NCBI GenBank assembly: GCA_001657315.1
Contig: LYSV01000070.1
Coordinates: 1-51,954 of the forward strand
Length of the DNA: 51,954 bases
Source: Flammeovirgaceae bacterium BBD 1991-12
GTDB lineage: Bacteria; Bacteroidota; Bacteroidia; Cytophagales; Cyclobacteriaceae
Direction: 5' to 3'
In this document: positions 31,390-43,682 of the stretch, one piece after another
How the letters are laid out: each line of letters opens with the position of its first letter
How positions within the stretch are numbered: position 1 is the stretch's first letter
Made by a program: the position numbers and the translations under genes
The notes under the pieces: generated by a model
Databases searched by the model: none
Seen by the model: only the letters and a program-made list of their open reading frames with translations
What the model was told of the DNA's origin: nothing

Positions 31390-32673
31390 TCACCCCATAG
31401 CGCGTTCCATTTTTTCCTGGATCTTGTCGTTGGCCAGATTTCCTATGCTGCCGATATGGGTATGTTCCAGATCTCTTTCAGGTTTGTATGTTCCTTCTTC
31501 AATGTCTTTTCCCACCTGTCTGTAGGCATCGCGGAATGAAAGGCCCTGTTTGACGAGGGTATTAACCGCTTCAACGGAAAATATGTAATCGTACTTCGGG
31601 TCATTGATAATCTGATCCGTAATAATGATGTGCTGAAGCATATATTCCGTAATGAACAGACAGGATTTTAAGGATTCGATAGCTGGCAGAAGACTTTCTT
31701 TAAGTAGCTGAAAATCACGATGATAGCCACTGGGCAGGTTATTTGTTATGGACATTAGCTCTGTGGGTAGCGCCTGTACCTTATTGCACCGGGCCCGCAC
31801 CAGCTCAAACACGTCCGGATTCTTTTTGTGTGGCATAATACTCGAACCGGTGGTGAGCTGGTCAGGAAAAGAGATAAAACCAAAGTTCTGACTCATGTAC
31901 AGGCATGCATCCATGGCGAGTTTGGACAATGTGCTGGCCACGCTGCTCATGGCAAAAGCCATGGTTCTTTCCAGTTTGCCTCTGCTCATTTGTGCGGCTA
32001 CTGAATTGTATTTCAGCGTGCTAAATCCCATAAGCTCCGTAGTCTGCTGACGGTCTACCGGGAATGAGCTGCCGTACCCTGCCGCCGAACCCAAAGGGTT
32101 TTGATCTGCCACCTGAAAGGCAGCATTGAGCAAATAGACATCATCCACCAGTGATTCTGCGTATGCTCCAAACCACATTCCGAAGGACGAAGGCATGGCT
32201 ACCTGTAAATGAGTATACCCTGGAATAAGCACATCCTTGTACTTGTTACTCAGCGTAATTAACCTGTCAAACAGTGATCTTATCAGTTCTTTGATCTTTT
32301 TGATCTCATCTTTGGCAAAAAGGTGCAGGTCAACCAGAACCTGATCATTCCGGGAGCGTGCCGTATGGATCTTCTTGCCGGCCTCTCCGAGTTTTTCGGT
32401 AAGCACATATTCTATTTTCGAATGGATATCCTCAAAAGATTCCTCAATGGTAAAATCACCCTGCTCTATCTCTATCAGTAGCTGGTTCAACTCCCTTTCA
32501 ATACCTGGTAACTCCCCCTGATCGATCAGTCCAACGGAAGTCAGCATTGTAGCGTGTGCCAGAGACCCAAGCACATCATATCTGGCCAGTTGCAGGTCCA
32601 GCACCCGGTCATTTCCTACTGTAAACTGTTCTATTAAGGTTTCCGTATTTGTTCCCTTGTCCCAAAGTTTCAT
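31390..32673 (-). CDS. argH: Argininosuccinate lyase
   Basis: 427 residues. This is the last step of arginine synthesis, splitting argininosuccinate to arginine and fumarate. The fumarase/aspartase superfamily signature GSSIMPHKKNP is present (about 280-290), together with KIHTARSRNDQVLVDLHL near the N-terminus and YTHLQVAMPSSFGMW. The protein is shorter than many ArgH proteins (about 460) because the C-terminal extension is reduced. It is the final gene of the arginine cluster, separated from argE by 67 bp that contain a heptamer array. Confidence 0.97.
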   Translation of the reverse strand: MKLWDKGTNTETLIEQFTVGNDRVLDLQLARYDVLGSLAHATMLTSVGLIDQGELPGIERELNQLLIEIEQGDFTIEESFEDIHSKIEYVLTEKLGEAGKKIHTARSRNDQVLVDLHLFAKDEIKKIKELIRSLFDRLITLSNKYKDVLIPGYTHLQVAMPSSFGMWFGAYAESLVDDVYLLNAAFQVADQNPLGSAAGYGSSFPVDRQQTTELMGFSTLKYNSVAAQMSRGKLERTMAFAMSSVASTLSKLAMDACLYMSQNFGFISFPDQLTTGSSIMPHKKNPDVFELVRARCNKVQALPTELMSITNNLPSGYHRDFQLLKESLLPAIESLKSCLFITEYMLQHIIITDQIINDPKYDYIFSVEAVNTLVKQGLSFRDAYRQVGKDIEEGTYKPERDLEHTHIGSIGNLANDKIQEKMERAMG

Positions 32674-32678
32674 ATGAT

Positions 32679-32755
32679 AGTCTTTAGTATTGAGTCCTGA
32701 GTCTTAAGTCTTTAGTAATGAGTTATCTCCAATTTCCAACTTACGGCTTCCAGCT
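32679..32755. repeat. 7-bp-period arrays: AGTnnnn x7, then TCCnnnT-like
   Basis: 32679-32727 is seven consecutive heptamers beginning AGT (for example AGTCTTT, AGTAATG). It is followed without a break by four heptamers of the TCC(A)nnT type (32728-32755, one of them TACGGCT), which run into the last codons of argE. The array fills the argE-argH junction. Confidence 0.8.
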
Positions 32756-33817
32756 TCCCAATTCCATCGTCAATCCTTTGAGAATCCTGATATACCCTTC
32801 AATTCCTTCCCCAATCTCTTTAAGATAAATGTATTCATCAGCCGTGTGCGAGCGTGCCGAATCCCCTGGACCTATCTTTACACTGGGGAAAGGCATTAAT
32901 GCCTGGTCGGAGAGGGTGGGGGAGCCGAATTTTTGTATCCCGAGTTTGTCGGCTACTGAAATGATCGGGTGATTCGGTGCAATACCTGAAGGCTGCAGGC
33001 GAACAGAACGAGGCTTCACCTCACAGTTCACCTGATTCCGGATGATTTCCAGAGTATCCTCCAGGGTATAGGCATCGGTGACCCGTACATCCACCACAAA
33101 ATGACATTCGTCAGGTACTACATTATGCTGGCTGCCGGCGCTGATCTGAGTCACGTTCATTTTTACCTTGCCCAATGCGTCCGAAACTTTCTCAAACTGA
33201 TAGGCCCTGAACCAATGGATATCTTTCATTGCCTTGTATAGGGCATTTTCACCTTCGTCTCTTGCGGCATGGCCTGCCTTTCCATGAGCGATGCAGTCCA
33301 GTACCATAAGTCCCTTTTCCGCCACGGCCAATTGCATTAGGGTAGGTTCGCCAACGATGGCCAGATCAACTTTTCCCAATTGTGGCAGGATACTTTCTAT
33401 CCCGTCTCTTCCGGATATTTCCTCTTCAGCAGTTCCGGCAAAGACAAGGTTAAAAGGAAGTTCTTCCTGTTCATAATAGTGAAGAAAGGTGATTATCAGC
33501 GAGACCAGCGCTCCTCCGGCATCATTGCTTCCGAGGCCATATAATTTTCCATCTTCCACCTGCGCGGTAAACGGATCCTTGGTATATCTCTGGTTTGGCT
33601 TGACCGTGTCATGGTGAGAGTTGAGCAGCAGGGTAGGCTTTGAAGGCGCAAACCCTTTGTTCCGGACCCAAACGTTGTTGCCCGTACCATGGACTTTGAT
33701 ATTCTTACTTTCAAAGTATTCTTTTATAAGCCGGGCAGTTCTGTCCTCTTCCCTCGATAGTGATGGTGTGCCAATAAGCGATTTGAGCAGTGAGATGGCC
33801 TCTTCCTTTATCATCAT
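32741..33817 (-). CDS. argE: M20 deacylase of arginine synthesis (ArgE type)
   Basis: 358 residues of the M20/ArgE/DapE zinc peptidase family. Metal ligands are seen at His68/69-Asp70 (SHHDTV), Asp99 (GSNDAGG), Glu131-Glu132 (GTAEEE) and in AIVGEPT. Because the operon carries an N-acylornithine carbamoyltransferase, its substrate is expected to be N-acyl-citrulline rather than N-acetylornithine (family knowledge from Xanthomonas and Bacteroides; inference here). The start overlaps the argB stop by 4 bases. The last few codons are formed by a heptamer repeat, so the C-terminal residues may vary between relatives. Confidence 0.9.
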   Translation of the reverse strand: MMIKEEAISLLKSLIGTPSLSREEDRTARLIKEYFESKNIKVHGTGNNVWVRNKGFAPSKPTLLLNSHHDTVKPNQRYTKDPFTAQVEDGKLYGLGSNDAGGALVSLIITFLHYYEQEELPFNLVFAGTAEEEISGRDGIESILPQLGKVDLAIVGEPTLMQLAVAEKGLMVLDCIAHGKAGHAARDEGENALYKAMKDIHWFRAYQFEKVSDALGKVKMNVTQISAGSQHNVVPDECHFVVDVRVTDAYTLEDTLEIIRNQVNCEVKPRSVRLQPSGIAPNHPIISVADKLGIQKFGSPTLSDQALMPFPSVKIGPGDSARSHTADEYIYLKEIGEGIEGYIRILKGLTMELGSWKP

Positions 33818-34587
33818 GCTACAAGTGTAGTGCCGATTTCATTGTTCAGGTTCAGGGCATCTTTAATTACAACCCTGATCCCACTATGTAATGCATTAAA
33901 AGCATTGTCCAGTTTGGGGATCATACCATCGACAATGATCCCTTCTTCTTTAAGTTGAAGATAGTATTGCCAGCTGAGCTCAGGCACTAGTGAGCTTTGA
34001 TCTTCCACATCCAGTAATACCCCGGCCTTTTCAAAACAGTAGATCAATGAAACCTCAAAATGTGAGTGCAGGCTCACGGCTATTCCGGAGGCGAGGGTAT
34101 CTGCATTGGTATTGAGCATATTCCCCTTTTGATCATGGGTAAGAGCGCAGAAAACAGGTGTGATCCCACTGTCCAGCAGGTTTTGGAGTAGTGCCGAATT
34201 AATGTCTTCTACTTCGAAATCCCCTACAAAACCATAGTCAATGGTCTCATGTATACGTTTATGAGCGGGAATGATATTGCCATCGGCACCGCTCAGTCCT
34301 AGGGCATTGTGCTTCAGCGCCTGCAACCGAGCGACGATATTCTTATTCACCAGACCTCCATATACCATAGTGACCACCTCCAGTGTCTTCTCGTCCGTTA
34401 CTCTTCTGCCTTTGATCAAATGTGGTTCAATACCGAGCCTTTTGGACATCTCAGAAGCTTTTTTGCCTCCTCCATGGACCAGTAACTTTTTGCCTTCGAG
34501 TGCCACAAACTGGTGAAGAACAGTATCCAGCTTGAAAGGGTCGTCAATGACCTGTCCTCCGATCTTTACTACTGTAAGTTTATCCAT
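33814..34587 (-). CDS. argB: N-acylglutamate kinase
   Basis: 257 residues of the amino-acid kinase family: VVKIGGQVID at the N-terminus, the phosphate loop HGGGKKASEMSKRLG (about 39-53), and near the C-terminus EEGIIVDGMIPKLDNAFNAL, the region that binds acylglutamate and ATP. No N-terminal extension is present, so the arginine-feedback type with an extra N-terminal helix is unlikely. It phosphorylates N-acetyl- or N-succinylglutamate for ArgC. It overlaps argF' by 8 bases and argE by 4, consistent with tight coupling. Confidence 0.95.
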   Translation of the reverse strand: MDKLTVVKIGGQVIDDPFKLDTVLHQFVALEGKKLLVHGGGKKASEMSKRLGIEPHLIKGRRVTDEKTLEVVTMVYGGLVNKNIVARLQALKHNALGLSGADGNIIPAHKRIHETIDYGFVGDFEVEDINSALLQNLLDSGITPVFCALTHDQKGNMLNTNADTLASGIAVSLHSHFEVSLIYCFEKAGVLLDVEDQSSLVPELSWQYYLQLKEEGIIVDGMIPKLDNAFNALHSGIRVVIKDALNLNNEIGTTLVA

Positions 34588-35518
34588 GACTTTCCAGTAT
34601 ATTTTTCAGTACCGCCTGTGCTGAACATTCCCGGTTTTTTGCCTGCTGGTAAACAATGGAATGGTCAATGACCTCGTCAGTAGCCACTACATTTCTGCGT
34701 ATCGGCAGGCAATGCATGAATTTGCCCTGCCGGGTCACATCCATTTTGTCTTTTGTTATGGTCCAGTCTTCCTCCACCGGCAGGATCTTTCCGTAGTCAT
34801 GATAGCCGGACCAGTTTTTGGCATAAATAAAATCGGCCTTTTCAAAGGCCTCGTATTGATCGTGGATCACTTCCACTCCGTTCATGAATTCATCTGCCAG
34901 CTCGTACCCTTTCGGACATGTTAGCACCACATGGGCATCTGTTTTTTTTATCCATTGTAAAAAGGAATTCGGGACAGCCTGTGGCAATGCCTTCGGGTGT
35001 GGCGCCCAGGAAAGCACTACTTTGGGCTTTTTTATCAGGTACTCTTCAATAGTGACCAGATCGGCCAGGGATTGCAGAGGATGAAGGGTGGCTGACTCAA
35101 GGCTGATAACCGGTACCTCGGAGTATTCCATGAATTGCCGGAGAACTTTCTCTGAATAGTCGTCCTCTCTGCTTTGTAGTTCAGGGAATGTCCTTACGCC
35201 CAGTACATCCACGTAACTACTGATCACCTTTACTGCATCCCTGATGTGTTCCTGGCTGTCGCCATTCATCACAGCGCCGTCTTCAAACTCTATTTTCCAG
35301 CCGTCTTTATCTACATTCATAACGATCACATTCATGCCCAGATTATAGCCTGCCTTTTGTGCGCTGAGACGTGTTCGCAGGCTGGGGTTAAAAAAGATGA
35401 GGCCAAGGGTTTTGTTATGGCCTATCCTGCTCTGTAATGGATCTGCCTTGAGCCGGATGGCTTCTTCAACAAGTTTCGGTATGTCTTCTGCGTCGTGTAC
35501 GGATGTAAAGTTTTTCAT
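34580..35518 (-). CDS. argF': N-acylornithine carbamoyltransferase (ArgF')
   Basis: 312 residues from the ATG at 35518; an in-frame ATG at 35536 adds six residues. The carbamoyl-phosphate motif is FFNPSLRTRLSAQKAG (the S-L-R-T-R form), HPLQS and FMHCLPIRRN complete the site. The overall sequence follows the AOTCase/SOTCase branch, which acts on N-acetyl- or N-succinylornithine, not ordinary OTCase. In the 80s-90s loop the residues are GDSQEH; from memory, SOTCase has Pro and AOTCase Glu at the Gln position, so the substrate cannot be settled here. A 223-bp gap and a KilA-N gene separate it from argD. Confidence 0.93.
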   Translation of the reverse strand: MKNFTSVHDAEDIPKLVEEAIRLKADPLQSRIGHNKTLGLIFFNPSLRTRLSAQKAGYNLGMNVIVMNVDKDGWKIEFEDGAVMNGDSQEHIRDAVKVISSYVDVLGVRTFPELQSREDDYSEKVLRQFMEYSEVPVISLESATLHPLQSLADLVTIEEYLIKKPKVVLSWAPHPKALPQAVPNSFLQWIKKTDAHVVLTCPKGYELADEFMNGVEVIHDQYEAFEKADFIYAKNWSGYHDYGKILPVEEDWTITKDKMDVTRQGKFMHCLPIRRNVVATDEVIDHSIVYQQAKNRECSAQAVLKNILESHG

Positions 35519-35741
35519 ATTGTTGATATTCCACACATCTGTGTTTAGTCACTTTATTTCTGCGGACAAAACCAAATGTCAGTTCTTATGACCCTTTGGT
35601 TGGGATACAGGTTTTGGGTGGTTTAGATTATTGTTCAATGTTCAGGTTCTGCTTTTAGCTTTTATTTTATTTGTCTATATCCACATAAGTTGTTTCGGAT
35701 AATTTTTTAAGGGATTTTATAAAATCCTTACCATCAAGTGT
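35519..35741. other. Junction between KilA-N gene and argF'
   Basis: AT-rich gap. It contains the palindrome GGATTTTATAAAATCC (35712-35727), the dyad ACACATCTGTGT (35533-35544) just ahead of argF', and a short loosely heptameric stretch around 35630-35665 (TTGTTCA, ATGTTCA, then CTTTTAG, CTTTTAT). It may hold a promoter for argF' made necessary by the inserted gene. Confidence 0.45.
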
Positions 35742-36530
35742 TTAGAGTTGTGTTTTTGCCAGAATTGTCAATTGTTTAAATCGGTCAGCCTTGTCTACCT
35801 TCTGACTGATCAAAACAGCATTGGTATTTTCTAGATTCGACATTACTACAAGTTCATTTATACTTGCAAAGTCTCTGATATTCAGTCCTTTTTCTGCATG
35901 TTTCTTATTTGCTTCTCGCCAGTCCTTTGCAGTACAATTGAACAAAGCCACATTAAGTAGATCGGCTTCTTCTGCATAAATAATCCATTCGGCGTCTTTT
36001 CGGTAGTCTTTTTTAGGAATTATATGATTTTTAATGGCGTCTGTATGCAAATGATAATTGGTTTTAGTCAGGATACGTTTAACATTCCATTCCAGGTTGT
36101 ACTTATTGGTTTCAATTTCCTTCAGACGTTGGAATTCTTTAATAAGCAGGAGTTTGAACATGGGGCTTATCCAGGAACCAAATTCAAATGCAATATCCTT
36201 ATGGGCATACGTTCCACCGTATCGACCGGATTTTGAGAAAATACCGATCGCTCTGGTTGCATCAACCCACTTTTTCGGCGTCAGGTTAAAGCTGTTGAGC
36301 CCGGCTTGTTTCCTAAAGGTGTCGAATTCGACAGGTTTAAAATTTGGGTTATGGATTGTCTCCCAAAGTCCAATGAACTCAACTGTGTTTCGGTTTCTCA
36401 TCCAGTTGCGGATATGGTTATCTCCTTCCTCATCTTTGACCATGTCCGTCAGGCATATATAATCTTCTTCGTTCTGTTTTGCGATAGAAATTATTTTGTC
36501 CTGTACTTCAATGGTATTGATAGTAGTCAT
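35742..36530 (-). CDS. KilA-N domain protein
   Basis: 262 residues. The KilA-N domain fills about 20-130: YICLTDMVKDEEGDNHIRNW, VEFIGLWETIHNPNFKPVEF, LTPKKWVDATRAIGIFSKSG, YAHKDIAFEFGSWISPMFKLL. The C-terminal half is polar and unrecognised. KilA-N is a DNA-binding module typical of phage and accessory genes. Here it lies inside the arginine operon, in the same direction, between argD and argF', with AT-rich gaps on both sides (125 and 223 bp), and is itself richer in A+T than its neighbours. It is probably an insertion of foreign origin with no role in arginine synthesis (inference). Confidence 0.88.
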   Translation of the reverse strand: MTTINTIEVQDKIISIAKQNEEDYICLTDMVKDEEGDNHIRNWMRNRNTVEFIGLWETIHNPNFKPVEFDTFRKQAGLNSFNLTPKKWVDATRAIGIFSKSGRYGGTYAHKDIAFEFGSWISPMFKLLLIKEFQRLKEIETNKYNLEWNVKRILTKTNYHLHTDAIKNHIIPKKDYRKDAEWIIYAEEADLLNVALFNCTAKDWREANKKHAEKGLNIRDFASINELVVMSNLENTNAVLISQKVDKADRFKQLTILAKTQL

Positions 36531-36654
36531 CTGCTCTGATTTTCAGAGACCGAATTTATGCAATTAATGACATTTTGCCCGGGGTTGAAGAAACAATAGC
36601 CATAAGGTTTATATTCTTTGCAATTTAACCAGTAGAATAATCGGTGCATACTAC

Positions 36655-37812
36655 TCAAACCGATACCCCCGGGCTTTTCATTTGACCAATTACCTCTTTC
36701 AGACTTTTTACAAAAAGGTCGGCTTCTTCAACAGAAAGTGTCAGTGGGGGGAGGAGCCGCAATACATTCGGATTGGAGGCAACACCCGTAAAAATATGAT
36801 GCTCCCTGAGTATCTTTTTTCTCATTTCAGCTATAGGGTGATCAAATTCAATGCCTATCATGAGTCCCTTACCCCTTACTTCCTTTGCCTCTCCTATCTC
36901 CTTCAATTTCTGTATGAAATAGTTGCCAACATCTGTGACATTTTGGAGCAGGTTTTCGTTTTCCATGATGTCAAGTACGGCTATACCAGCGGCACATGCC
37001 AGATGATTTCCTCCAAAGGTAGTTCCTGACATACCAAACCACCCTTCGATATCCGGCCGGATTAATATGCCGCCGATGGGAAAGCCATTTCCCATACCCT
37101 TGGCTATGGTGATCACATCTGGCCTTAGCCCAGGGACATACTGATGTGCAAAGAATTTTCCCGATCTTCCGTACCCGGATTGGATCTCGTCCAGGATCAG
37201 AAAAGCTCCATATTTCTCTGTAAGAGATCTCAGTCCCATGAGAAATTCTGCCGACGGTTCATAGATACCCCCGAGGCCTTGTATACCCTCGATGATCACT
37301 GCACATACATCATCATTTTGCAGTGATTTTTCAACGCCTTCAAGGTCACCCAGCTCAAAAAACGCTACATTATGTACGGCATCTGCCGGAGCCCGGTATT
37401 TTGGACTGTCCGTTACGGCTACAGCTCTTGAGGTTCTTCCATGAAATCCTCTGCTAAAGGCGATGAACTTACTTTTTTCATTCTGAAAGGAAGCTATTTT
37501 TAACGCATTCTCGGTGGCTTCGGCACCCGAGTTGCACAGGAACAGCTGGTAATCGTCATAGCCTGACAGTTTGCCCAGCTTCTCTGCCAGCTCAAGCTGT
37601 AGCCGGTTGATCACAGAGTTGGAATAAAACGAGATCTTGTCCAACTGGTCCCTGATCCTTTGTACGTAAAGGGGATGCGTATGACCTACGGAGATCACGG
37701 CATGACCCCCATACAGATCCAGATATTTTTGTCCATCACTATCATACACCCAGCAGCCCTCTCCTTTGACCAGTTCGATGTCCATTAAGGGATATACATT
37801 GAAGAAATTCAT
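36655..37812 (-). CDS. argD: N-acylornithine aminotransferase
   Basis: 385 residues of class-III PLP aminotransferases. Seen are LYGGHAVISVGHTHP, LFLCNSGAEATENALKIA, FHGRTSRAVAVT, the Asp that pairs with the pyridine N in LILDEIQSGYGRSGKFFA and the Schiff-base Lys in ITIAKGMGNGFPIGG. It converts N-acylglutamate semialdehyde to N-acylornithine. A 7-bp repeat array begins only 5 bases upstream of its start codon. Gene order places it between proC and the KilA-N insertion. Confidence 0.96.
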   Translation of the reverse strand: MNFFNVYPLMDIELVKGEGCWVYDSDGQKYLDLYGGHAVISVGHTHPLYVQRIRDQLDKISFYSNSVINRLQLELAEKLGKLSGYDDYQLFLCNSGAEATENALKIASFQNEKSKFIAFSRGFHGRTSRAVAVTDSPKYRAPADAVHNVAFFELGDLEGVEKSLQNDDVCAVIIEGIQGLGGIYEPSAEFLMGLRSLTEKYGAFLILDEIQSGYGRSGKFFAHQYVPGLRPDVITIAKGMGNGFPIGGILIRPDIEGWFGMSGTTFGGNHLACAAGIAVLDIMENENLLQNVTDVGNYFIQKLKEIGEAKEVRGKGLMIGIEFDHPIAEMRKKILREHHIFTGVASNPNVLRLLPPLTLSVEEADLFVKSLKEVIGQMKSPGVSV

Positions 37813-37817
37813 GTGTC

Positions 37818-37859
37818 AGTTATTAGTCTTGAGTAATGAGTCATAAATCACAAGCGGAG
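37818..37859. repeat. 7-bp-period array: AGTnnnn
   Basis: Six consecutive heptamers, the first four beginning AGT (AGTTATT, AGTCTTG and so on), the last two weaker (AAT, AGC). It lies 5 bases upstream of the argD start codon. A second, weaker run of ATTnnnn heptamers occurs at about 37870-37890. Confidence 0.7.
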
Positions 37860-37903
37860 AAAGGGAAATTATTCAACATTTATAATTCAGACATTAAAAA
37901 TTT

Positions 37904-38713
37904 TCATTTGCCCTTCATCGCATTGATGCGTTCGAAAGAAGTGACCAGCCCCTTGATAAGGGCTGAGCTCAGGCCATGATGTTCCATTTCATTAAGCCCG
38001 GAAATGGTACAACCCTGGGGAGTAGTTACCCTGTCGATCTCTTTTTCCGGGTGTCCTCCGTTACCGGCCAGCAGGCTCGCGGCGCCCTTACAGGTTTGCA
38101 CAGCTATTTGCTGAGCGTCCTCTGCATCGAAGCCCAACTGAACTCCACCCTGAGTGGTAGCCCTGATGAACCGCATCCAGAAGGCGATACCGCTGGCACA
38201 GACAACGGTAGCTGCCTGCATCAGCTCTTCATGTATTTCCATGGTCTTTCCCACACAGTCAAATATGGAATGCACCAGACTAAGTTTGGCCTTTCCTTTA
38301 TCATTGCAGGCAATACAGGTCATGGACTCAAGTACTGCAATGGCCGTGTTTGGCATAGCCCGCACGACTGCACAGCTTTTTCCTATCGTTTGTTCTATCT
38401 GCTCAATCGTTACCGCGGTGATCACGGATATCAGTGTATGACGTTCCGGATCCACATGATCTCTGATCTCTTCCAGTAATCCAGACAACTGTTTCGGCTG
38501 TACAGCAAGTATGATCAGGTCTGAAGACTGTACGGCCTGTACATTGTCAGAAGTGACCATCACTTGCTGATGCTTTATTTTTTCAAGAGAAGAGAGTTCA
38601 CGCCGGGTGAGGATCACCTTGTTTGTGGCCAGCAGCCCACCTTTCTCGAGGCCTTTGAAGATGGCCAGCCCCAGGTTTCCCGCTCCTATGATGGCTATCG
38701 TTTGATTATCCAT
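37904..38713 (-). CDS. proC: Pyrroline-5-carboxylate reductase
   Basis: 269 residues. N-terminal dinucleotide motif GAGNLGLAIFKGL, the LILAVQPKQL strand, VVRAMPNTAIAV, and the C-terminal dimerisation region with TTQGGVQLGF, TPQGCTISGLNEMEHHGLSSALIKGL. It makes proline from pyrroline-5-carboxylate, which can come from ornithine-linked pathways. Its presence inside the arginine operon ties proline supply to arginine control; the gene starts 5 bases after the argC stop. Confidence 0.95.
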   Translation of the reverse strand: MDNQTIAIIGAGNLGLAIFKGLEKGGLLATNKVILTRRELSSLEKIKHQQVMVTSDNVQAVQSSDLIILAVQPKQLSGLLEEIRDHVDPERHTLISVITAVTIEQIEQTIGKSCAVVRAMPNTAIAVLESMTCIACNDKGKAKLSLVHSIFDCVGKTMEIHEELMQAATVVCASGIAFWMRFIRATTQGGVQLGFDAEDAQQIAVQTCKGAASLLAGNGGHPEKEIDRVTTPQGCTISGLNEMEHHGLSSALIKGLVTSFERINAMKGK

Positions 38714-38718
38714 AATTC

Positions 38719-39693
38719 TTAAAACATTGAAGCTTTTAGTCCAAGCCCAAGCCTTTGGTCGAGACTGAACATGAGGTTCATATTTTCAACTGCCTGGCCG
38801 GAGGCTCCCTTCAGGAGATTGTCTATAACACTGGTGATCAGTAGGTAATCCCCATGTTTTTCAAGGTGCAGCAGACATTTGTTGGTGTTAACCACTTGTT
38901 TGAGGTGGACGGGTTCATCTGCCACAGTAGTGAACGGAGCATTTTCATAGTAATTGTGGTATACATTTTTCATCTCTTCAACGTTCTGAGGAGTGTGCGT
39001 GTAAACTGTGGCGAGGATACCGCGTGTGAAATTGCCTCTCACCGGAATAAAATTCACGGGCTCATCAAACCATGGCTGCAGGCTTTTTATGCTCTCGGTG
39101 ATCTCGGCCAAATGCTGATGACTAAAGGGTTTGTAAATGGACACATTGTTGTTCCTCCATGTGAAATGAGTAGTTGAGGTCAGGGACTGTCCTGCTCCTG
39201 TGGAGCCTGTAATGGCATTTACATGTACTTCATTCTCCAGCTTTTCCTCATGGGCCAGCGGCAGCAGGGCCAGCTGGATAGCAGTGGCAAAGCAGCCCGG
39301 GTTAGCGATATTCCGGGCCTTTGTGATCTGTGTTCCGTTCAGTTCGGGAAGGCCATAGACAAAACTTCTGCCATTGAAGGTAGAACCCTTCTTTAAACGA
39401 AAGTCATTGCTCAGGTCTATGATCCTGGACCCGTTCATCGGATTTTTTTCAAGATATTCCCTGCTTTTTCCATGCCCGAGACACAGGAAGACTACATCGG
39501 AGTCAGAGTCAGGTTCCTTGCTGAACTTCAGGTTGGTTTCGCCCACCAGATCATGGTGTGCTGCATGAACAGGCTGACCCGCATGACTTTGGCTTACAAC
39601 GGACAGGGTTTCTACCTCCGGGTGGTGGATCAGTGTTCTGATGAGCTCGCCGGCAGTATAACCGGCCCCGCCTATAACTGCTGCTTTTATCAT
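38719..39693 (-). CDS. argC: N-acyl-gamma-glutamyl-phosphate reductase
   Basis: 324 residues. The NADP motif GGAGYTAGELIRTLIHHPEVE opens the protein (about 8-27; written here in part), the catalytic Cys is in IANPGCFATAIQLALLPL (about 136), and the His-containing substrate region HQHLAEI is present. Length is normal for the short ArgC type. It overlaps argG by 4 bases (ATGA). Confidence 0.95.
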   Translation of the reverse strand: MIKAAVIGGAGYTAGELIRTLIHHPEVETLSVVSQSHAGQPVHAAHHDLVGETNLKFSKEPDSDSDVVFLCLGHGKSREYLEKNPMNGSRIIDLSNDFRLKKGSTFNGRSFVYGLPELNGTQITKARNIANPGCFATAIQLALLPLAHEEKLENEVHVNAITGSTGAGQSLTSTTHFTWRNNNVSIYKPFSHQHLAEITESIKSLQPWFDEPVNFIPVRGNFTRGILATVYTHTPQNVEEMKNVYHNYYENAPFTTVADEPVHLKQVVNTNKCLLHLEKHGDYLLITSVIDNLLKGASGQAVENMNLMFSLDQRLGLGLKASMF

Positions 39694-40898
39694 TTTTTCG
39701 TTATCAATGGATTTTGATTAATGGCATGATGGATCTTGGTCTGATTGGCCAGTATTTTTGTAAAACCTTTTACATCTTCTCCCGTCCATGCATTATTCAT
39801 TTCACCATAGTCACCAAACTTTGAGTTCATGAGATCATAGTCAGATTGAACACCTATGACCTCGAACCGGTAGGGTGAAAGTTCTATCTCCACACTACCC
39901 GTTACATTGCCTTGTGTGTCTTCCATGAATTTTTCAATATTCCGCATGACCGGATCGAGGTACTGTCCCTCATGCATGAGCATACCATACCACTCCGCCA
40001 GTTGATCTTTCCAGTATTGCTGCCACCTGGTGAGTACATGCTTCTCAAGAGTATGATGTGCCTTGATGATGATCATGGGGGCTGCTGCTTCAAAACCTAC
40101 CCGGCCCTTGATGCCAATGATGGTATCGCCAATGTGAATATCCCTGCCTGCGGCATACTGACTGGCCATACTTTCCAATTTCCGGATAGCCTGAACGGGG
40201 GAATACTCGATGCCGTTAAGGCCTGTTAGCTCACCTTTGTGGAAGTACAGTGAGATCTTTTCTGTGTCCTGTTTTCGCAGGGGGCTTGGGTACGCACTGT
40301 CCGGTAAGGACTGGTGAGAGGTGAGGGTTTCCGCACCACCAACACTGGTGCCCCACAGGCCTTTATTGATCGAATATTTTGCTTTTTCCCAATTCATCTC
40401 CACACCATGCGACTTAAGGTACTGTATTTCCTGTTCACGGGAGAGCTGCTGGTCGCGAATAGGTGTGATCACCTCTGTCTCAGGGGCCAGGATGTTGAAT
40501 ACCAGGTCAAACCGCACCTGATCATTGCCGGCGCCGGTGCTGCCGTGAGCAATGTAGCCGCTTTCGATCTCTTTCGCATAGTTGGCGATGGCAATGGCCT
40601 GGAAAACACGTTCCGCACTTACGGATAGCGGATAGGTGTTATTCTTGAGTATGTTGCCGTAGATCAGGAATTTTACTCCCTGCTGGTAAAATTCATCTGT
40701 GACATCAATGGTCTTGTGCTGGTGTACTCCAAGGGATGTTGCCCTTTGTTCGATTTGCTGTACCTCTTCAGCATCGAAACCACCGGTATTTACAAGAGCC
40801 GAGTAGACCTCGAGCCCAAGTTCATGGGTCAGATATTTTACACAATAGGAGGTATCCAAACCGCCGGAGAAGGCCAGTACAACTTTTTTATTGTTCAT
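39690..40898 (-). CDS. argG: Argininosuccinate synthase
   Basis: 402 residues. The PP-loop ATP motif VVLAFSGGLDTSYCVKYL is at the N-terminus; downstream are YIAHGSTGAGNDQVRF and WGTSVGGAETLTS, the citrulline- and aspartate-binding segments. It condenses citrulline with aspartate. The start codon is 1 base after the stop of the GNAT gene, so GNAT and argG are the first two enzymes of the operon, read right after the leader. Confidence 0.96.
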   Translation of the reverse strand: MNNKKVVLAFSGGLDTSYCVKYLTHELGLEVYSALVNTGGFDAEEVQQIEQRATSLGVHQHKTIDVTDEFYQQGVKFLIYGNILKNNTYPLSVSAERVFQAIAIANYAKEIESGYIAHGSTGAGNDQVRFDLVFNILAPETEVITPIRDQQLSREQEIQYLKSHGVEMNWEKAKYSINKGLWGTSVGGAETLTSHQSLPDSAYPSPLRKQDTEKISLYFHKGELTGLNGIEYSPVQAIRKLESMASQYAAGRDIHIGDTIIGIKGRVGFEAAAPMIIIKAHHTLEKHVLTRWQQYWKDQLAEWYGMLMHEGQYLDPVMRNIEKFMEDTQGNVTGSVEIELSPYRFEVIGVQSDYDLMNSKFGDYGEMNNAWTGEDVKGFTKILANQTKIHHAINQNPLITKK

Positions 40899-40899
40899 G

Positions 40900-41553
40900 T
40901 TAAAACATTTTAGCTTTTAATCCTGCCCGCATCTTTCTTTTGGCTTTCAGACTGTGGAGCATTACAAATCGTTTAAACCGTTGCCAGCGCAGCTCCTTGT
41001 CCCGCATCTTTGGCTCAGGTTTTACCTTAAGCGGATCATACAACATGCCTGTGCACAGGCAGTGGGATCTTTCGGTACGGGTAAGAATGTCATAGTTTTT
41101 ACAGCTCTGGCACCCGGACCAAAAATTTTCATCTGTAGTGAGCTCTGAGAAGGTCACCGGCTTGTAGCCAAGATCGGAGTTGATCTTCATGACTGCCAGA
41201 CTGGTGGTAATACCAAATATTTTGGATCCCGGGTATTTTTCCTTTGAAAGATTAAAAACTGCTTTTTTGATCCTTTTGCCCAGACCTGTTCCTCTGAAAT
41301 CCGGATGTACAATAAGACCGGAATTGGCGACATACTTGTGATGACCCCAGGTCTCTATGTAACAAAAGCCTACCAGTTTTCCATCTTTTAAGGCAATAAT
41401 GGCCTTCCCTTCCATCATTTTTGCTTTGACGTACATGGGCGACCTCTTGGCTATTCCTGTGCCTCTTTGTAAGGCAGCCTGCTCCATGAGCAGGCATATA
41501 TCTTCTGCAAATTGCAAATGGTCCTCACTTGCGGTTTTAATTTCGACGTCCAT
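40900..41553 (-). CDS. GNAT acyltransferase, candidate N-acylglutamate synthase
   Basis: 217 residues from the ATG at 41553; the frame is open further upstream, but those codons belong to the leader region. The GNAT core has the acyl-CoA pyrophosphate loop GLIVHPDFRGTGLGKRIKKA, preceded by AIIALKDGKLVGFCYIETWG. After the core comes an unusual cysteine cluster, C-x2-C-x13-C-x-C (SGCQSCKN ... HCLCTG), that could bind zinc or a cluster. As first gene of the arginine operon with no other ArgA or ArgJ in sight, it is the obvious candidate for the first step, acyl transfer to glutamate (inference). Confidence 0.85.
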   Translation of the reverse strand: MDVEIKTASEDHLQFAEDICLLMEQAALQRGTGIAKRSPMYVKAKMMEGKAIIALKDGKLVGFCYIETWGHHKYVANSGLIVHPDFRGTGLGKRIKKAVFNLSKEKYPGSKIFGITTSLAVMKINSDLGYKPVTFSELTTDENFWSGCQSCKNYDILTRTERSHCLCTGMLYDPLKVKPEPKMRDKELRWQRFKRFVMLHSLKAKRKMRAGLKAKMF

Positions 41554-41630
41554 TTTCGAAATAATTAATGGATATGCTTCAGGAGCACTTTGTGTTTTTG
41601 AAATGAGATTTAAGAACGAGATGAGAGAAT

Positions 41631-41676
41631 GCAGTGGGCGTACCACCGCTTGAACAACGCTACCCCAAAAGGGGCC
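41631..41676 (-). promoter_or_regulatory. Leader hairpins between arg leader ORF and first arg gene
   Basis: On the minus strand, CCCC-TTTT-GGGG (41663-41674) covers the last codons and stop of the leader peptide, and a second hairpin with a 7-bp stem including one G-U pair (GCGGTGG/CCCACTGC-type, 41631-41649) follows. A stretch GGTAC in the second hairpin can instead pair with GTACC inside the leader ORF (around 41706-41711), giving an alternative structure. No U-run follows, so the mechanism (Rho, intrinsic or translational) is open. Confidence 0.55.
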
Positions 41677-41764
41677 TGGTTGTCCTAATCCTGGCACATG
41701 GAGCCGGTACCGCACTCGGGAAGAGAGCGAGAGAGTTGAAGATATTCGTGTCAGAATTAGCCAT
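41660..41764 (-). CDS. Putative arginine-operon leader peptide (34 aa)
   Basis: ATG at 41764, stop TAG at 41660, too short to be found by usual length cut-offs. The first 24 codons contain no Arg; then three AGG Arg codons fall within six codons (residues 25, 27 and 30; the end reads CARIRTTRPLLG), immediately followed by the GC-rich hairpin at the stop codon. It is on the same strand as, and 106 bases ahead of, the first arginine-operon gene. A ribosome slowed at AGG by arginine shortage would sit on the hairpin region, which is the classical logic of amino-acid attenuation. No homologous leader is known to me. Confidence 0.65.
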   Translation of the reverse strand: MANSDTNIFNSLALFPSAVPAPCARIRTTRPLLG

Positions 41765-41774
41765 TAGAAGGTAC

Positions 41775-41804
41775 AAAGGATGTGATTTAATTTTTTAAAT
41801 GCAA
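41775..41804 (-). promoter_or_regulatory. Candidate promoter of the arginine operon
   Basis: Minus strand TTG (41804-41802) is spaced 19 bases from ATCCTTTG (41782-41775), near the Bacteroidota -33 TTG / -7 TAnnTTTG pattern (TA replaced by AT). Transcription would begin only a few bases before the leader ATG at 41764. Confidence 0.35.
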
Positions 41805-41884
41805 GACTTACCCAAATTTTTGTTTCTGTTTGACAGCCGGTCCATGGTTTTTCACGTTGTAGATAAAGGATGTAGTTTTACGAT

Positions 41885-42370
41885 ATGAGATTACTGATTT
41901 TGTTGCTGCTTTTCACCACAGCTATCGCCAACGCACAGTCGGCGAAGGAGCTGTTGGAAATAGGTTACAGGAATTATGAATTGGGAGATTACAAGGAAGC
42001 CATTCGGTATTTTGATCAGGCCAGTGAGTTGAAATCGGATGATCCCGAGCTTTTCTACCTGAGGGGGGTGTGCAAATCACAGTCAGGCAGGAACAACGAG
42101 GCTCTTGGGGATTATGAGATAGCACTTTCACTGGACCCGGACTATGCAGAGGTGCACTATGAAAAGGGGTATGCCTTATTTTTACTGGACAAGCTGGAAG
42201 AATCCGTCAAATCATTTGACAAAGCAATAGAGTTAAACCCCCGGTATGCCGAGGCGTGGTTTAACCGTGGGAGTATCAAATGTATACAGGGTGATACAAA
42301 AGGGGCAAAGGAAGATTGGGACCAAGCCCGTGCCTTGGGAGCGCATATACCGGATCAGGAATGTGAGTAG
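41885..42370 (+). CDS. Secreted tetratricopeptide (TPR) protein
   Basis: 161 residues. Signal peptide 1-18 (RLLILLLLFTTAIANAQ), then four TPR units from about 22: GYRNYELGDYKEAIRYFDQA, FYLRGVCKSQSGRNNEALGDY, VHYEKGYALFLLDKLEESVK, AWFNRGSIKCIQGDTKGAKED. The protein consists of little else, so it is probably a periplasmic scaffold. It is divergent from the arginine leader across a 120-bp gap and convergent with the hydroxylase gene, with an AT-rich inverted repeat between. Confidence 0.9.
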   Translation: MRLLILLLLFTTAIANAQSAKELLEIGYRNYELGDYKEAIRYFDQASELKSDDPELFYLRGVCKSQSGRNNEALGDYEIALSLDPDYAEVHYEKGYALFLLDKLEESVKSFDKAIELNPRYAEAWFNRGSIKCIQGDTKGAKEDWDQARALGAHIPDQECE

Positions 42371-43522: not shown

Positions 43523-43599
43523 TTCTGGTTTCTGGTTTCTGGTTTCTGGTTTCTGGTTTCTGGTTTCTGGTTTCTGGTTTCTGGTTTCTGGTTTCTGGT
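43523..43599. repeat. Perfect 11 x 7-bp tandem repeat before alkB
   Basis: Unit TTCTGGT on the + strand (CTGGTTT in another phase; ACCAGAA on the coding strand), 11 exact copies over 77 bases. It begins 2 bases upstream of the alkB start codon. The unit belongs to the same CTGGnnn family as the degenerate array at 31301. No stop codon occurs within the repeat in any frame of the coding strand, but in-frame stops lie just upstream of it. Confidence 0.95.
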
Positions 43600-43682
43600 T
43601 TAATTTAACTCGATAAGTTACGGATTTATGAACATTAGGCCAATACAAATCTGTTCACATGATCAACTCAGAGGTTTAACTT

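Follow-up and report, generated by a model that had tools for sequence, protein, structure and literature searches.

The window, by which we mean the whole 51,954-nucleotide stretch of Flammeovirgaceae bacterium BBD 1991-12 DNA that was analysed (contig LYSV01000070.1), carries a cluster of arginine biosynthesis genes at positions 31390 to 41553, identified by profile searches. All the genes lie on the minus strand, in the order GNAT (argA-like), argG, argC, proC, argD, a KilA-N ORF, N-acetylornithine carbamoyltransferase, argB, an argE/dapE-like gene and argH, which ends at 31390, and their layout suggests that they form one operon. The products of argC, proC, the N-acetylornithine carbamoyltransferase gene, argB and argH scored above the NCBIfam cut-offs; argG scored 260.8 bits against a cut-off of 268.2, argD and the argE/dapE-like gene also fell just or well below theirs, and the GNAT gene is named from Pfam only. 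The KilA-N domain protein is encoded at 35742-36530 (minus strand), between argD and the N-acetylornithine carbamoyltransferase gene, and proC (pyrroline-5-carboxylate reductase) sits at 37904-38713 (minus strand), within the arg cluster. Elsewhere in the window, positions 43523-43601 hold a perfect tandem repeat of the 7-bp unit TTCTGGT in 11.3 copies.

Upstream of the cluster lies a 34-codon ORF on the minus strand (41660..41764), which starts with an ATG at 41764, stops with a TAG at 41662..41660 and encodes MANSDTNIFNSLALFPSAVPAPCARIRTTRPLLG; we identified it from the ORF list and by comparison with relatives. The first-pass annotation had read it as an arginine leader with three late AGG codons, a CCCC-TTTT-GGGG hairpin at its end, a second hairpin beyond and 106 bases between its stop and the arg genes, and rereading the sequence bore out all of these features. 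Codons 1 to 24 contain no Arg, and the three AGG triplets, at codons 25, 27 and 30 (41692..41690, 41686..41684 and 41677..41675), all fall within the last ten codons. Hairpin A, GCCCC-TTTT-GGGGT (41662..41675), overlaps the last Arg codon by one base and the stop codon by another, its first. It is followed, also on the minus strand, by a 12-nt linker (41650..41661) and by hairpin B, GCGGTGG-TACGC-CCACTGC (41631..41649), whose pentaloop fits a URYGY consensus. From there a C-rich, G-poor spacer (41554..41630), judged rut-like from its base composition, extends to the GNAT ATG at 41553.

A putative sigma-A promoter (41774..41804, minus strand) precedes the leader, consisting of TTG at 41804..41802, a 20-nt gap and ATCCTTTG at 41781..41774. 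The latter is a near match to TAnnTTTG, given in the main text of one study as the flavobacterial −7 box (PMC9723704), and this −7-like box ends 9 nt upstream of the leader ATG. A loose TAnnTTTG-like box was found at most 30 nt from the ATG in 18 of 44 leaders and was missing from the other 26; by the same loose pattern it lay 7 to 9 nt before the ATG in 12 of the 44, the 41764 leader included. Since the box ends so close to the ATG in these cases, the leader mRNA, which would start within a few nucleotides of the ATG, may be nearly leaderless. According to the main text of the same study, leaderless mRNAs are uncommon in Flavobacterium psychrophilum, making up 5.5% of mRNAs (PMC9723704).

We searched 117 genomes for homologues of the GNAT gene, found a match in 93 and took the upstream DNA of 90 loci, the window's among them. 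The resulting 171 loci comprised the window's own region twice (L001 and L002), 89 regions from relatives and the best 80 of 574 confirmed stretches; G099, G111, the weak G036 and second copies lay outside the set, and some genomes were represented in both sources. De-duplication reduced the 171 upstream regions to 165 (exact) and then 147 (k-mer). A leader was counted where an ATG-started ORF of 12 to 60 codons had three or more Arg among its last 14 residues and a stop 35 to 300 nt before GNAT. By this strict rule a leader was present in 91 of the 147 upstreams and absent from 56, while 20 rounds of dinucleotide shuffling gave a mean of 10.5 (maximum, 17) and the opposite strand gave 17. The same test on all 20 residues gave by far the largest excess for Arg (91 against 12 expected), followed by Pro (22 against 7.7) and Thr (19 against 8). 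The first-pass annotation had held that the absence of a conserved small ORF with Arg codons from related genomes would count against the leader; with such an ORF in 91 of 147 upstreams, the comparison instead strongly supports an arginine leader peptide before the arg cluster.

Arg was the most conserved leader residue across 53 overlapping alignable pairs, at 84% (Met, 79%), a figure inflated because the leaders were selected for Arg. Arg codons in the same pairs showed 27 synonymous changes against 145 identical codons, and the rest of the leader peptide drifts between relatives; the Spirosoma-type leaders have common HTTPFRFRSERT-like ends. AGG made up 98 of 184 Arg codons in 44 hairpin-B leaders, compared with 29 of 154 in 12 genes of the window (Fisher p = 4e-11, with leaders related to each other and a comparison set from one genome). 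Thirteen independent leader pairs had 57, 59 and 74 changes at the three codon positions and 38 synonymous codons, against 31.7 at random (random maximum, 44), a slight excess. Because these 13 pairs do not favour strong selection on the peptide, we prefer codon sensing over a nascent-peptide sensor.

To look at the RNA structure with the ORF ignored, we searched for a GC-rich 5-bp hairpin 5' of a pentaloop hairpin, with any gap of 3 to 25 nt permitted. This A-B module was found in 60 of the 147 upstreams by structure alone (63 of 165 in the exact-de-duplicated set) and in none of the other 87 by this strict search, compared with 0.1 per 147 in shuffled sequence and 1 on the opposite strand. 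It consists of hairpin A (5 bp), a linker and hairpin B (7 bp, with a mostly URYGY pentaloop), and despite the permitted range the best gap between the hairpins was 10 to 14 nt in all 60. Fifty-four of the 60 had an ORF carrying two or more Arg among its last 14 codons and a stop from −9 to +6 nt of the end of A, starting with ATG in 46 cases, GTG in 5 and TTG in 3; the remaining six (L064, L087, L091, L092, L102 and L106) had no qualifying ORF at A. The same ORF test gave 5.4 (maximum, 10) on shuffled sequence, and moving its window by −120, −80, +40 and +80 nt gave 2, 4, 9 and 2 of 60. The leader together with the A-B module is thus well supported by comparison.

The loop and stem of hairpin B were tested separately in 92 leaders, with stops up to 320 nt from GNAT. 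When the best pentaloop hairpin beyond the stop was picked on its stem only, 58 were obtained, 42 of which had a URYGY loop; picking sites by the loop alone gave 57, whose flanks paired in 380 of 456 cells, against 177 to 235 when slid by 1 to 3 bases. The loop of hairpin A is variable. Of the 60 modules, 47 were predicted to fold A and 52 to fold B. A covariance model from nine sequences gave 36 matches in 100 loci, one per locus, and in the model-fitted alignment 97.4% of cells were paired, against 73.2% in shuffled controls. Nine of the 12 pairs in that alignment changed on both sides; 4 of 500 shuffles reached this count and none of the 500 reached the covariation score. Two further ideas about loop B were discarded: as a strict anticodon mimic (ACG of tRNA-Arg) it is contradicted by UAUGY and UGCGY loops, and pairing of the loop with its flank is no general feature, the loop complement occurring in 12 of 57 with 6.3 expected.

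The Arg ORF enrichment and the covariation argue against a chance ORF. An N-terminal extension of GNAT would account for the frame, which is open from a GTG at 41715 and runs for 271 aa through GNAT. We rejected it because the frame is not kept in a 90%-identical relative, whose open frame, at 225 aa, extends little beyond the 217 matched residues, and we consider either account of the ORF, chance or extension, barely credible.

A second covariance model (R2) gave a single strong match in this genome, the arg site (E = 1e-8; next, 0.33). Across 38 genomes it gave 15 matches below 1e-6, all directly 5' of GNAT, with a next best of 0.003; they comprised one in each of the 13 genomes of the same genus (Fulvivirga, Cytophagales) that have GNAT, plus G020 and G023. 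Neither of the two genomes of the genus that lack a GNAT match (G010 and G011) had a strong module match (best in G011, 0.006). Since the model had been built with nearly all of these 15 sequences, what is informative in this search is that no strong match turned up elsewhere; eight genus sequences lying outside the first model were nevertheless found by it (L005-L007, L009-L012, own-genus neighbours). Eighteen of the 38 genomes had no match at E 0.05, including family members that carry another form of the module at arg. No module was found upstream of hisG, ilvD or carA (30 of each, oriented).

Taxa carrying the module include Spirosoma, Larkinella, Emticicia, Rudanella, Persicitalea, Telluribacter, Aquimarina, Spongiivirga and Flavobacteriales MAGs. 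A further locus, L103 from a Chitinophagales MAG, carries the leader with hairpin B and is hit by both models, and it fails the strict search. None of 10 Flavobacterium loci had the module; two of that genus (L090 and L117) pass the rule of three Arg in the ORF, and chance can explain both. Run on the loci, R2 gave 50 matches, some of the weakest (e.g., L101 and L065) misplaced or on the wrong strand, and it scored the Arsenicibacter locus L082 at 14.7 bits. In a phylum draw of 395 genomes R2 matched this genome and two weak sites, which we judged to be chance, as the loci read held no arg gene; because R2 favours the Fulvivirga-like form and the filters were strict, this draw is no measure of spread.

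At the gathering cut-off, Rfam 15 gave no match in the whole window and 20 relatives, and at E values up to 10, window positions 41500-41900 and 13 relatives gave three rows each, none of which reached gathering or bore a related name. Covariance models for Bacteroid-trp (RF01692), guanidine-II and T-box gave no match in the arg regions scanned. These searches bear on the idea that A-B is mainly a binding element, whether for a regulatory protein, for arginine or for a different guanidinium compound, and that the leader supplies a second input. Its narrow A-B spacing and a loop B conserved on variable stems (42 of 58 URYGY) would suit such an element, and loop B recalls guanidine-II RNAs, which have ACGR loops. 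Loop B usually ends in a pyrimidine, however, loop A is variable, no Rfam match of that kind appeared at E values up to 10, and an Arg ORF is the usual companion of the module (54 of 60), so we regard this as an unlikely account.

The first-pass annotation had noticed no obvious U-run, and the wider set agrees: terminator-like sites were found in just 1 of the 60 module-bearing arg regions and in 2 of 147 arg regions overall, and a T4 run lay within 10 nt of hairpin B in 10 of the 60 modules. The same scan found sites in 14 of 16 hisG upstreams with a His-run frame and in 16 of 30 hisG, 5 of 30 ilvD and 23 of 30 carA upstreams, the last perhaps being the ends of preceding genes. In the genus, his leaders have runs of 3 to 6 His and are mostly followed by a U-run terminator among the loci listed, so that the his attenuator in Fulvivirga is apparently classical. 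Genus trp leaders (L234-L245) have WWW (AWWWH-type) and, again among the loci listed, are mostly followed by U-run hairpins. We also observed His leaders at hisG in L173, L175-L177, L180, L183, L184, L188, L189, L192, L194 and L199, a trp terminator of the form GCCCGCTGTTC..GAACAGCGGGC-U-run, and a tandem pair of trp leaders in L235, L237, L238 and L245. Leader-like ORFs were few upstream of ilvD; five such regions outside the genus (L208, L218, L220, L224 and L226) had Ile/Leu/Val-rich small ORFs resembling branched-chain leaders.

A classical attenuator, in which B would be the intrinsic terminator and an antiterminator would form when the ribosome stalls, is suggested by the leader ORF with its cognate codons and by the similar his and trp leaders of the genus. 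The scarcity of T4 runs and terminator-like sites near B speaks against it, as does the lack of any alternative helix longer than shuffled sequence gives. An alternative pairing of GTACC with GGTAC had been proposed in the first-pass annotation, but in 59 modules the alternative helices of the A and B arms were about as long as in shuffled sequence (5.59 against 5.30 for the 5' arm of B, the other arms being closer or below), and that proposal did not hold up. No mutually exclusive antiterminator was found by this simple ungapped helix test, a weak negative. We consider a classical attenuator very unlikely here.

Downstream of B, C exceeded G in 59 of 60 modules, with a C/G ratio of 3.07, compared with 0.87 on the promoter side and 0.92 to 1.23 before hisG, ilvD and carA; the final 40 nt before GNAT were less extreme (1.50). 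In 46 loci the spacer from B to GNAT was 43 to 268 nt long and showed no excess folding (mean z, −0.26). This genome encodes a Rho RNA-binding domain. ArgR, searched with the PF01316 model only, was above the cut-off in none of the 117 genomes and positive in 9 of 14 control genomes, including Bacteroides ihuae; two sub-cut-off matches were ArgR-like, one of them in this genome (24.1 bits; cut-off, 27).

The C-rich composition at most suggests that Rho may load on the spacer, and Rho would be the likeliest terminator because no intrinsic terminator was seen. The C-rich spacer with no excess folding, the Rho domain and the absence of ArgR above its cut-off in 117 genomes together lead us to favour Rho-type termination that depends on ribosome position. 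The first-pass annotation had left the output as Rho-dependent or translational, which fits the C-rich spacer and the scarcity of terminators. An output through translation or mRNA decay, with initiation at the GNAT cistron or RNase access being controlled rather than transcription, is compatible with the missing terminator, and an Arg-codon leader of Staphylococcus aureus, rbfL, acts on translation initiation in the available text of its report (PMC13009471). The range of spacer lengths is nevertheless unlike direct occlusion of the start site, and the spacer is not unusually folded; we hold this reading to be rather doubtful, though a more serious contender than the binding element.

We infer that the locus works by attenuation, as a cis-acting arginine sensor in which the position of the leader ribosome would probably govern Rho-dependent termination in the spacer. 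The leader ribosome would report the charging of Arg-tRNA. With ample arginine it would reach the stop codon, melt A and depart, and transcription would end early in the spacer. With scarce arginine it would stall on the Arg codons, altering whether A, and hence A-B, is folded; that fold state would matter while RNA polymerase and Rho travel past, and transcription of the operon would go ahead. A-B could act in this scheme as a Rho antagonist, a Rho helper or a pause signal. In the 54 modules with an ORF at A, the stop is placed so that a ribosome terminating there, with a typical footprint, would cover A largely or completely. The first clustered Arg codon lies less than 14 nt from A in 23 of the 54 leaders (7 nt in the Spirosoma type), where a stalled ribosome would also cover A, so a rule that stalling leaves A folded cannot be universal.

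A bolder form of this Rho-dependent model can be offered only tentatively, and we would not yet bank on it. A-B, bound by a factor that recognises the URYGY loop, might block or license Rho according to ribosome position, and the leaders might represent a new class of attenuator that takes over the role of ArgR, one that is widespread in Cytophagales and extends to Flavobacteriales and Chitinophagales.

ArgR controls arginine biosynthesis in many bacteria, and the leader with its module is a candidate for control of arginine synthesis in bacteria with no detectable ArgR. The A-B module is also a conserved structured RNA for which Rfam 15 has no matching family. No arginine leader peptide of an arg operon in Bacteroidota appeared in the titles and abstract openings searched, a scope that left out most subscription journals. 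An account of F. psychrophilum describes strong clues that leader-peptide attenuation operates ahead of operons for amino-acid biosynthesis; its available text names neither an arginine leader nor such a module (PMC9723704). The available text of a study of Bacteroides thetaiotaomicron notes that long 5' UTRs contain short ORFs resembling leader peptides (PMC7366714). In the accessible text of the rbfL report, a short leader detects arginine limitation through rare Arg codons (AGG/AGA), and rbfL reduces the translation of a biofilm regulator by blocking the regulator's ribosome binding site; the arg leader differs in preceding a biosynthetic operon, and that text mentions no module for rbfL (PMC13009471).

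Ribosome-mediated attenuators of the his and trp type likewise combine a short ORF, clustered cognate codons, hairpins and biosynthetic genes. Bacteroid-trp (RF01692) is counted with the ribosome-mediated attenuators of amino-acid operons. We know of no counterpart of the A-B module among Rho-dependent leader attenuators. The arg leader has the leader ORF and C-rich, G-poor untranslated stretch of tnaC and mgtL, which are Rho-dependent leader attenuators without an intrinsic terminator; it too has no intrinsic terminator, and its own dependence on Rho is putative. Bacteroid-trp itself is listed in the available text of PMC2864571. Compared with his/trp-type attenuators, the arg leader had no intrinsic terminator or antiterminator that we could find and has instead a narrowly spaced module, a conserved pentaloop and a C-rich spacer. 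The his and trp leaders of the genus precede U-run terminators, whereas its arg leader does not; this contrast suggests that in a single lineage one kind of sensor is coupled to two different output devices, and it makes Rho-linked attenuation in Bacteroidota directly testable.
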